Notes under the pieces: model-generated
Told to the model about the DNA's origin: nothing
Databases searched by the model: none
The model's input: only the letters and a program-made list of their open reading frames with translations
Program-made: the position numbers and the translations under genes
Source of the DNA: Pedobacter sp.
GTDB lineage: Bacteria; Bacteroidota; Bacteroidia; Sphingobacteriales; Sphingobacteriaceae
Assembly: GCF_031119335.1 (NCBI RefSeq)
Contig: NZ_JAVHXT010000001.1
Location: forward strand, 220,448 to 284,447
DNA: 64,000 bases
Direction: 5' to 3'
Shown: positions 60,592-64,000 of the stretch, in pieces
How the letters are laid out: every line of letters begins with the position of its first letter
Position numbering within the stretch: the first letter of the stretch is position 1

Positions 60592-60882
60592 CTATATTTT
60601 TGATTTCTTACTTTTAGCTGCTAATGCTTCTTGTTCCGCAATAGTGTTTAGCTTAACGTCTTTAAAAATCTGCTTTTGAAGTTCTCCAGGCTCTACTTCC
60701 ATTGCTAAAGCTATGAGATAGCTTTCTTGGGCGGTAAGTATAGTTGAGGGGTCATTAGAAAGCAAACTTAATCTTGTTTCACTTATTCCTGTTTTTCTAT
60801 AAATCGCAGCTTTATTTGCTGATTTATTAAATAGAAATTTTCCCAAGTTTGTTATTTCCGATTTCTTTTTCACAGTAATCAT
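60592..60882 (-). CDS. Small XRE/HTH-like DNA-binding protein
   Basis: NKAAIYRKTGISETRLSLLSNDPSTILTAQESYLIALAMEVEPGEL. Confidence 0.65.
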   Translation of the reverse strand: MITVKKKSEITNLGKFLFNKSANKAAIYRKTGISETRLSLLSNDPSTILTAQESYLIALAMEVEPGELQKQIFKDVKLNTIAEQEALAAKSKKSKI

Positions 60883-61028: not shown

Positions 61029-61147
61029 TCTGAGGCCGTTGAAGCAAGACAGCAGATTAATGCCCATATCTATATGTAGATGTATATATTTGTACATCGA
61101 AATAGATGTGGGACTGCTGTAAATCCATTTCAACGTAAGGCCTCAGA
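61029..61147. repeat. Long imperfect hairpin / inverted repeat upstream of the sigma factor gene
   Basis: TCTGAGGCC/GGCCTCAGA, GTTGAA/TTCAAC, ACAGCAG/CTGCTGT, CCCATATCTAT/ATAGATGTGGG, GATGTA/TACATC nested arms. Confidence 0.75.
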
Positions 61148-61230: not shown

Positions 61231-61383
61231 ATGGAAAGAAAACAATTAACGCAATTTTCAAAAGCCTATCGTCGCAGTAGGCAGTGCAGCCAATGTTTTG
61301 GCCTTTCTTTACGTACATCCAAACCTGTATCGTTTTATCTTTTTGATCGGCTTTATGCTTTGAAGCCGAAGAATCCGGTGTAA
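61231..61383 (+). CDS. Possible small ORF (50 aa, CxxC-containing)
   Basis: MERKQLTQFSKAYRRSRQCSQCFGLSLRTSKPVSFYLFDRLYALKPKNPV*; hairpin CTCGTATaatcaaATACGAG abuts the ATG. Confidence 0.3.
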   Translation: MERKQLTQFSKAYRRSRQCSQCFGLSLRTSKPVSFYLFDRLYALKPKNPV

Positions 61384-61746: not shown

Positions 61747-62532
61747 ATGAAAAGAAATTATGCACTCAATTTTGATCAGTTTAGGGAAGGAAACGAAAAG
61801 GGTTTGACGTTCTTTTATCAATTATGGTATCCTAAATTATATTACTGGTGCTTTAGATATATCAAAGACGATATAAATGCCGACTGCATAGTAAATGAAG
61901 CTTTTTTAAGGTTGTGGTTAGCGAGGAAGCAGATGGAAGTGGTAGAACAGTTGGAGCTATTTGTGAGGAAGTTGATTGCAGATGGTTGCAGGGCTTTTTA
62001 TAAGACGGCTAACCATCAATTTCAGCGTAGTATGTTGCGTTTAGACGAGATAGATGATTACCAAGATTGGATGGCAGGCTTTGATCCGAGATTGGAAAGT
62101 GAAGAGCAAGCGCTTTACGAGCAGGCACCAGATGAACAGCTTAAAGAGCAATGGGCGCAGGTAGAAAGGGTGATCCCCAGCCTTAATTTAGACCAGCAAT
62201 TGTTTGTGCGTTTGTGCATGAAATATGGTTTCGACTATGGTCGTATTGCCTGGCATGTTGGTGGGGTCTCCGATCATCAGGTAGCCCGAAAGGTTGAAAA
62301 AATATTGAAGGAGCTGAAAGCCATCCTTTCCGATACGAAGAAGCTGGGTACCGTTAAGAACAGCCAGTTCACGTTCCAAGGCGATGTAAGCGAAGAACAG
62401 TCCGAAATTTTGCGCATGCGCTATACTTTGGGCTACAGCTTTGCCGAAATCGCCAAGGAGCTGAACTTACCCCAAGGCGATATCCAAAGGACTTTTGTAA
62501 ATGCGATGACAAAGGTTAAGAAGGAAAAATAA
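61747..62532 (+). CDS. Atypical ECF-like RNA polymerase sigma factor with apparent second C-terminal HTH
   Basis: Region 2-like FREGNEKGLTFFYQLWYPKLYYWCFRYIKDDINADCIVNEAFLRLW; region 4-like LNLDQQLFVRLCMKYGFDYGRIAWHVGGVSDHQVARKVEKIL; extra SEEQSEILRMRYTLGYSFAEIAKELNLPQGDIQRTFVNAMTKVKK. Confidence 0.75.
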   Translation: MKRNYALNFDQFREGNEKGLTFFYQLWYPKLYYWCFRYIKDDINADCIVNEAFLRLWLARKQMEVVEQLELFVRKLIADGCRAFYKTANHQFQRSMLRLDEIDDYQDWMAGFDPRLESEEQALYEQAPDEQLKEQWAQVERVIPSLNLDQQLFVRLCMKYGFDYGRIAWHVGGVSDHQVARKVEKILKELKAILSDTKKLGTVKNSQFTFQGDVSEEQSEILRMRYTLGYSFAEIAKELNLPQGDIQRTFVNAMTKVKKEK

Positions 62533-62638: not shown

Positions 62639-63736
62639 ATGGAAACTAAAACCATCATCATTACCCGCAAAATTCAACTCCTTATAGATAGCGAGGATGC
62701 TGAAGTAGTTAAAGAGGCCAAAGCTCAACTCTATCAATGGCAAAACATCTGCTTTAAGGCAGCTAATATGATCATAAGCCATCAGTTTATACAGGAGCAG
62801 GTAAAAGATTTTTTCTACCTCACCGAAGACATCAAGCTAAAGTTAAGCGACAAGAAGAAGGATGAAGATGGCATATTAACGTTATCAAAAGAGGGTACCA
62901 CCTACCATGTATTGGCTAGCCATTTCAAAGGTCGGGTACCTATGAACATGATGGCTAACCTTAACCATAGTTTGCTATCGTACTTCAGTAAGGAAAAAGC
63001 GGCTTATTGGAAGGGGGAGAAGTCGCTTAGAAACTATAAGAAGAATATTCCAATACCATTTAGCGGACGGTCTATTACTAAATTTACGCTTACGCCCGAT
63101 GGTAGGAATTATCGTTTTAAGCTCTTTAAAATTCCTTTTAGAACTTACTTGGGCAGAGACCGCTCTGACAAAAAGATAGTGATGGATCGATTAAGAACTG
63201 GAGCACTGCAGCTTCGTGCCAGTCACTTGCAAATCACACAGGGCAAAGTATTCCTATTGGCCACCATTCAAATGGAGAAAGCGCAACATGAGTTAGATCC
63301 CACGGTTATTGCGGAAGCTTCGCTGTCCATAGAACATCCGGTGGTGGTTAAGATTGGGAAATATAGCTATACCATTGGCAGTAAGGAAGAGTTTTTGCAT
63401 AGGCGTTTGGCCATACAAGCTGCTATCTATCGGGTAAAGAAGGGGGCGAGCTTTAATAGGGGTGGGCACGGCAGAAAAAGGAAGATGAAAAGCTTGGACG
63501 ACTATAAACAACAAGAAAAGCGCTATGTAGATTATAAACTGCATGTGTATAGCCGAATGCTGATTAATTTTTGCATTAAACATAATGCGGCTACGCTGCT
63601 ATTGGTTAATCAGCAGGCCAAGGAAGAGCTAGCCAAAGAAGATCATTTCTTATTGCAGAACTGGAGTTACTATAGTTTGAAAGAGAAGATAAGCTACAAA
63701 GCTGTAAAAGCAGGCATACAATTAATTGTAGAATAA
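62639..63736 (+). CDS. Nuclease-dead, C-terminally truncated TnpB/Cas12f-like protein
   Basis: SLRNYKKNIPIPF; ITQGKVFLLATIQME; IGSKEEFLHRRLAIQ; RGGHGRKRKMKSL; NWSYYSLKEKISYKAVKAGIQLIVE resemble TnpB/Cas12f landmarks. RuvC-I Asp (SIEHPVV) and RuvC-II Glu (LLLVNQQ) are replaced, and the ORF stops before the expected VxPxYTSQxCxxCG zinc-finger/RuvC-III segment. Confidence 0.75.
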   Translation: METKTIIITRKIQLLIDSEDAEVVKEAKAQLYQWQNICFKAANMIISHQFIQEQVKDFFYLTEDIKLKLSDKKKDEDGILTLSKEGTTYHVLASHFKGRVPMNMMANLNHSLLSYFSKEKAAYWKGEKSLRNYKKNIPIPFSGRSITKFTLTPDGRNYRFKLFKIPFRTYLGRDRSDKKIVMDRLRTGALQLRASHLQITQGKVFLLATIQMEKAQHELDPTVIAEASLSIEHPVVVKIGKYSYTIGSKEEFLHRRLAIQAAIYRVKKGASFNRGGHGRKRKMKSLDDYKQQEKRYVDYKLHVYSRMLINFCIKHNAATLLLVNQQAKEELAKEDHFLLQNWSYYSLKEKISYKAVKAGIQLIVE

Positions 63737-63742
63737 ATTTAA

Positions 63743-63830
63743 GGAGGTTGCTTGCACAACCCTAGGGTGAGATCATTGGTACTCACTAAGCTTAGCGTGA
63801 TCTAGCTGGCATGCAACAGAACAAAATTTG
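63743..63830 (+). ncRNA. Candidate omegaRNA/guide-RNA-like unit 1
   Basis: Hairpin 1 GGTTG-cttgca-CAACC, hairpin 2 GTGAGATC-att-GGTaCTCAC, CTAAG, then variable 22 nt cttagcgtgatctagctggcat; begins a few nt after the TnpB-like stop codon. Confidence 0.6.
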
Positions 63831-63867
63831 TTCGCATAAGGAGTTGTTTTGTATTTTTTGATATAAA
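63827..63867 (+). promoter_or_regulatory. Promoter-like linker between array units
   Basis: TTTG, then TATTTTTTG with about 21 nt between them, resembling the Bacteroidota -33 TTG / -7 TAnnTTTG promoter with one extra nt; predicted start falls at the 5' edge of hairpin 1. Confidence 0.4.
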
Positions 63868-63951
63868 AGAGGCTACTTGCATAGCCGCAGGGTGAGATCG
63901 CTGATACTCACTAAGTTTGGTTAATCTGAACCTGTAACTGAACGTAATTTG
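63868..63951 (+). ncRNA. Candidate omegaRNA/guide-RNA-like unit 2
   Basis: Hairpin 1 GGCTA-cttgca-TAGCC, hairpin 2 GTGAGATC-gct-GATaCTCAC, CTAAG, then variable 18 nt tttggttaatctgaacct. Confidence 0.6.
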
Positions 63952-64000
63952 TTCGCATAAGGAGTTGTTTTGTATTTTTTGATATAAAAGAGGCTACTTG

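Follow-up and report, generated by a model that had tools for sequence, protein, structure and literature searches.

A tandem array of probable dCas12f guide RNAs beside a sigma factor gene in Pedobacter

We analyzed 64,000 nt of DNA (hereafter the window) from a Pedobacter sp. whose genome comprises 4.36 Mb in 26 contigs and is 95% complete. With considerable confidence, we interpret the tandem array at the 3' end of the window as the guide RNAs (gRNAs) of a dCas12f-sigmaE RNA-guided transcription system that would act at leaders, several of which precede SusCD-type operons. The original prediction went no further than "structured ncRNA"; the units are very likely guide RNA scaffolds beside the genes for a nuclease-dead Cas12f (dCas12f) and a sigma factor. 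The units were linked to dCas12f, as its very likely guide RNAs, because they lie directly 3' of its gene, which itself follows the gene of an ECF sigma factor.

The sigma factor, dCas12f and the array

The sigma factor gene (61747-62532, + strand) encodes a sigmaE/RpoE-like ECF sigma factor (NCBIfam sigma70-ECF, E=3e-17), whose only strong PDB match is the "RpoE" of entry 9n9q (9n9q_C, phmmer E=4.5e-41). The dCas12f gene (62639-63736, + strand) encodes a protein of 365 amino acids that matches "Nuclease-deactivated Cas12f" (PDB 9n9c_A) with a phmmer E-value of 1.3e-126; in the family searches, Pfam said little and NCBIfam gave weak TnpB/Cas12f2 matches, far below the match to dCas12f. We take PDB entries 9n9c, 9n9m, 9n9o, and 9n9q to belong to a dCas12f-sigmaE system for RNA-guided transcription that was published in 2025. 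The sigma and dCas12f open reading frames are both intact. Judged from its alignment to the active Cas12f 9nzo, the window homolog has lost its nuclease residues: the RuvC-I motif GVDLG reads EASLS, with Ser replacing the Asp, no counterpart of the RuvC-II Glu was found in this alignment, and the C-terminus is ~90 amino acids short, the zinc-finger/RuvC-III part being absent.

The array contains two full units within the window, 125 bases apart and on the + strand. Unit 1 (63746-63786) consists of hairpin 1 (GGTTG-CTTGCA-CAACC, 63746-63761), a linker, and hairpin 2 (63767-63786), and unit 2 (63871-63911) has the same arrangement, with hairpin 1 reading GGCTA-CTTGCA-TAGCC (63871-63886). The letters of both hairpins are as originally predicted, and so are the compensated changes in hairpin 1 (pair 3 from T-A to C-G, pair 5 from G-C to A-T), the G-U that replaces an A-U in hairpin 2, and the positions of the linkers (ctagg/gcagg) and of the subsequent CTAAG. 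The covariance model R1 (cmsearch) gave 58.3 bits (E=2.8e-15) for unit 1, which belongs to the seed of this model, and 58.1 bits (E=3.3e-15) for unit 2.

Each scaffold appears to end in a motif able to pair with the loop of hairpin 1, namely TGCAAC in unit 1 (63812-63817, + strand, pairing with loop TTGCA) and TGTAAC, with one G-U, in unit 2 (63933-63938, + strand); both assignments rest on loop/partner covariation. The predicted guides begin directly afterward: AGAACAAAATTTGTTC at 63818-63833 and TGAACGTAATTTGTTC at 63939-63954, both on the + strand, the latter fitting leaders such as L136 with 2 mismatches. A unit is thus very likely a scaffold that ends in the pseudoknot partner (TGCAAC/TGTAAC), followed by a guide of ~16-17 nt. 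The unit lengths follow from a scaffold of ~72 nt plus a guide of ~16-20 nt, in a repeat of ~125 nt.

Only the 5' start of a third unit (63992-64000, + strand) lies in the window. The original prediction had called for sequence past 64000, and the array does continue there: unit 3 runs into a 100-N assembly gap, beyond which lie two more 3' parts, one the end of another unit and one a degenerate unit that has no hairpin 1 (unit 4), with two further guides, AGAACATTATTTGTTC and AGAACGTTATTTGTTC (L007 3992-4260 for the whole of this stretch). The gap within the array (L007 4001-4100, genome C10:284448-284547) probably stems from near-identical repeats. A second array was found in the same genome, on contig C25. 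Elsewhere in the window, a Flavo-1 RNA (RF01705; 24308-24375, - strand) scored 46.7 bits, above the Rfam gathering score.

Scaffold covariation and distribution among relatives

The two window units had been put forward as strong evidence for selected structure, for which they are thin when taken alone, as their single-sequence folding z-scores (-1.1 and -1.4) are slightly better than those of shuffles and not decisive. The evidence becomes strong with 35 distinct units, including those of Leeuwenhoekiella and Chryseolinea: 97.3% of cells are paired vs 86.6% after shuffling, double-change cells number 60 vs 19, seven pairs are changed on both sides, and 0 of 500 shuffles reach the observed values. 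It should be noted that selection of the 35 units demanded at least four of the five hairpin-1 pairs, which favors hairpin 1 and not hairpin 2. The stems are thus kept in the further units and covariation holds across many relatives, bearing out the proposal that structured RNA units selected for pairing are arrayed in tandem.

The loop CTTGCA, described as invariant, is the same in both window units, but among relatives it reads TTGCA or TTGTA, matching the downstream partner. With the partner scored as the first TRYAAY motif downstream of the hairpins, the loop:partner counts were TTGCA:TGCAA 14, TTGCA:TACAA 0, TTGTA:TGCAA 1, and TTGTA:TACAA 32 (Fisher 4e-11, relatedness of the units being ignored). 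Departures occur in the window array, where unit 2 and a unit past the gap combine TTGCA with TGTAA, and in one unit of the related genome G123, where TTGTA is combined with TGCAA; G-U pairs keep the pairing in each case. As read from these sequences, the hairpin-1 loop and TGCAA/TACAA form a pseudoknot that adjoins the start of the guide.

In the window's genus, dCas12f was detected in 29 of 147 genomes, and a sigma factor homolog lies directly upstream of it in all 38 genus loci examined. The window genome itself carries two complete sigma-dCas12f loci, whose dCas12f proteins are 80% identical. The named relatives are mainly Pedobacter, with Leeuwenhoekiella and Chryseolinea as distant ones. 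The covariance model found 91 distinct units, many of them in its own seed, at 40 of 42 dCas12f loci (1 to 10 per locus, with at least two at 21 loci), and none in eight other loci (leaders or operons, 102 kb). One culturable species with long arrays is P. cryoconitis. A single unit lies downstream of dCas12f in Leeuwenhoekiella and Chryseolinea, and the most divergent Pedobacter loci also have one unit, located either 5' of the sigma gene or between it and the dCas12f gene.

Genome G074 has four dCas12f loci (L079, L092, L094, L100), several of them frameshifted or with stops, and its downstream arrays persist; a frameshifted dCas12f copy is also present in G072 (L098). A record labeled "Flavobacteriaceae bacterium PS02338" (JASCOD010000001.1, L214) matches the locus of G123, a member of the window's genus, and its family label looks wrong.

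Guides and their sites in structured leaders

The bases that follow TGCAAY/TACAAY recur between species as a few classes. The guide GGCGGACTTCATGTTA was looked for in six genomes that have it, or a near variant, in their arrays, and four of these contain one exact match outside the array. These matches (L104, L105, L108, L112) are all intergenic, all preceded by G, and all located in one conserved leader, and three of the four were traced downstream to TlpA-SusC-SusD operons (L161, L162, L165). For this class, guide and site of the same genome agree over 17 nt in G031, over 16 nt in G066, and over 14 nt followed by one mismatch in G042 and G072. Sites upstream of TlpA-SusC-SusD or SusC-SusD genes in relatives are those of L159, L161, L162, and L165. 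For the class CGCTATGGGCTCTATTG, G025 contains a pair of one-mismatch sites, each after G, and one of them precedes SusC-SusD. For the ATGTGGG class, intergenic targets were sought in three genomes, and the raw matches were mostly one-mismatch.

A comparison of 90 candidate guides with 18 leaders gave 13 exact matches and 28 with at most two mismatches, vs 0 leader matches with at most two mismatches (none below 3) for the reversed guides. Of the 28 good matches, 23 have G as the 5' base and 5 have A, and all five A-preceded matches belong to the guide class of the window array. The leader set was fetched in part with two guide classes, the match counts of which are therefore circular; the 5' G was absent from the search patterns. 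The guide classes independent of the leader search are TACTATGGTTTTTCGC, TTCTTAGCGG, AGAACGTTATTTGTTC, and GCTCTATTGTAATTCC. Classes unused in that search also match leaders, TACTATGGTTTTTCGC, AGAACGTTATTTGTTC, and GCTCTATTGTAATTCC exactly and TTCTTAGCGGTACATA with 2 mismatches. Guide-leader matches begin directly after the pseudoknot partner. The guides have the same sense as the leader, so that their pairing partner would be the template DNA strand and not the leader RNA; antisense pairing of the matched guides with leader RNA was rejected, since these guides are leader-sense and fit in antisense with 3 mismatches at best.

The leader is conserved, ~300-600 nt long, and located upstream of TlpA-SusC-SusD operons (L158 on contig C4 of the window's own genome, L134-L148, L161-L165). 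Its type-I form was present in 10 of 10 genomes searched, and it also occurs upstream of the sigma-dCas12f operon in G031, G089, and G082. The consensus fold has 77 pairs, of which 18 show compensatory changes, as well as several constant G-U pairs; because of these two features, a leader acting as RNA fits better than DNA hairpins. The first target site falls within the right arm of the leader's long stem, and guide positions 5-8, which vary among guides and among leaders, fall mostly in an internal loop of the leader. No Rfam family matches either the arrays or the leaders, and the latter are possibly an undescribed leader RNA.

In the window array, all guides are nearly identical and derive from a single sequence class, which is also kept in G123. 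Pattern searches found no perfect target for the window guides in their own 95%-complete genome, and with up to 3 mismatches only coding matches or chance-level counts were obtained there. Genus-wide, the pattern GAACNNNATTTGTTCGNAT was found in arrays and coding sequence only, and the pattern GGCGNNNTTYRYGTMARA of the second locus (locus B) gave control-level matches outside its array, every non-array match being in coding sequence. Relatives' leaders do match the window guides (AGAACAAAATTTGTTC, TGAACGTAATTTGTTC, and the two past the gap) with 0-2 mismatches, ~245 bases in. The best fit to the own-genome leader L141 is that of AGAACAAAATTTGTTC, with 3 mismatches; the same guide has 2 to leader L138. 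The best locus-B guide also has 3 mismatches to the own leader, at positions 5, 7, and 8. The own-genome leader precedes redoxin (TlpA-like), TonB-receptor, and SusD genes, the match of its own guides being imperfect.

The leader stretch matched by the window guides is preceded by A and not G. This could reflect a guide start two bases further on, which would have a G before it, a relaxed TAM, or an array gradually falling out of use. Another reading is that the window array is a degenerate, non-working copy that has lost its targets and survives by repeat duplication, the second locus doing the work. The near-identical guides without an exact genomic target, the A before the leader match, the unit without hairpin 1, and the frameshifted copies of G074 and G072 would all fit such a history, but the dCas12f and sigma reading frames are intact, compensatory changes maintain the hairpins and the pseudoknot, and G123 retains the same guide class. 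We consider this reading unlikely, and favor the interpretation of the array as guide RNAs of a dCas12f-sigmaE system.

A putative target site also lies upstream of the sigma-dCas12f operon in the window (61105-61126, + strand), where a G (TAM, 61105) is followed by ATGTGGGACTGCTGTAAATCC, which a guide from a different Pedobacter locus (L076) matches at 16/16 bases. The site is the left arm of an inverted repeat, and the guide of locus B unit 5 in the same genome, ATGTGGGCGCTGCTGT, differs from it by CG for A. This suggests that the sigma-dCas12f operon is self-regulated through the site. Between site and sigma gene, a small open reading frame of 50 amino acids, ending in FGLSLRTSKPVSFYLFDRLYALKPKNPV, was read from the sequence (61231-61383, + strand), and a homologous stretch (84% DNA identity over 116 bases) is present upstream of the second locus. 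Short open reading frames ending in FDRLYALKPKNPV recur 3' of target leaders and 5' of sigma-dCas12f operons (window 61231-61383; L141, L104, L112), and a DRLYA[L/I]KPKNP-type tail like that of the small ORF recurs downstream of target leaders; these ORFs may be a leader peptide or a repeat. The region upstream of the window sigma gene was rejected as a dispersed element, as only the second locus matched it over any length. A divergent gene for a small protein that looks, by eye, like a helix-turn-helix protein (60592-60882, - strand) lies immediately upstream of the window target leader, and such genes also immediately precede the target site in L158, L159, and L165.

Known systems and proposed mechanism

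In the system that Hoffmann, Sternberg and colleagues reportedly described in 2025, dCas12f with its gRNA recruits sigmaE and RNA polymerase, with a minimal 5'-G target-adjacent motif. The window locus resembles it in a dCas12f of the same family over its full length (E=1e-126), a sigma partner of the same family (E=4e-41), SusC-type target operons, and a gRNA beside the operon. As to the 5'-G, it precedes 23 of the 28 good matches across the genus, but the five of the window array's guide class have A. The RuvC residues are lost, the sigma gene is linked, and the locus encodes a predicted gRNA with a conserved scaffold and 3' guide; targets upstream of susC/susD were found in relatives, and the own-genome leader has an imperfect match. 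Points of difference in Pedobacter are arrays with as many as 10 units whose guides differ, the presence of two loci in one genome, and target sites that lie inside structured leaders. We know of no multi-guide arrays in the published description of the dCas12f-sigmaE system. By analogy, dCas12f loaded with a gRNA would open the DNA at a matching site after G, the sigma factor bound to dCas12f would recruit RNA polymerase, and transcription would start downstream of the target without a classical promoter. The targets would be DNA sites within leaders that are conserved and structured. Several of these sites precede TlpA-SusC-SusD uptake operons, and similar ones are located upstream of the sigma-dCas12f operon itself. 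Given the known system and the targets in relatives, SusCD-type operons would be activated.

CRISPR-Cas12f (type V-F) is similar in that its repeats resemble the TGCAAC scaffold end preceding the guide and that its units are arrayed. Here, in contrast, the full scaffold is repeated in each unit, no acquisition genes were noted beside the window locus, the catalytic residues are absent, and the guides match leaders of their own genus rather than foreign DNA; a role in adaptive immunity was rejected on the last two points.

TldRs, in the account of PMC13418256, which cites Wiegand 2024, are nuclease-dead TnpB repressors. Like the present system, they combine a TnpB/Cas12-like protein that is nuclease-dead with a guide RNA directed to regulatory DNA of the chromosome, and they provide a precedent for the same array serving a repressor, in which dCas12f on leader sites would block transcription. 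Repression would suit those target sites that are deep in the leader, at +245 and +390 relative to the first one, since elongation could be blocked by a complex bound there. However, TldRs lack a sigma partner, and a repressor needs none, whereas a sigma factor adjoins dCas12f in every locus; in the closest structures solved, dCas12f is in complex with RpoE, and the sequence affinity is to Cas12f/dCas12f, with a match far above that to TnpB. Membership in the TldRs was rejected on this basis, and we regard repression as quite improbable. It is less credible still that the units are structured sRNAs unrelated to dCas12f, either trans-acting regulators or REP-like DNA hairpins, which merely adjoin its gene: Rfam has no match and the two window units fold only slightly better than shuffles, but units accompany dCas12f at 40 of 42 loci, as far as Leeuwenhoekiella and Chryseolinea, and occur at 0 of 8 other loci, and the guide-leader matches start directly after the pseudoknot partner.

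The dCas12f-sigmaE reading thus places the array in a kind of system that is already known, within which its multi-guide arrays and the structure of the target leaders seem to mark a variant not yet described. A more tentative proposal, to which we give somewhat less than even chances, is that the arrays are heritable address lists, in which one dCas12f-sigma pair would use several guides, each for a different SusCD leader, the guides arising by duplication and drift and not by CRISPR acquisition. If so, guide and leader would co-evolve, guide positions 5-8 would be one variable address, and a nutrient-uptake regulon would be rewired through point changes in guides. Research on RNA-guided transcription with dCas12f and a sigma factor is at a very early stage, and Pedobacter offers natural systems in 29 of 147 species, with up to 10 guides per array and target leaders legible by visual inspection. 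Genomes can thereby be used to test guide length, TAM, mismatch tolerance, and regulon logic, and the arrays would give multiplexed gene activation a precedent in nature.
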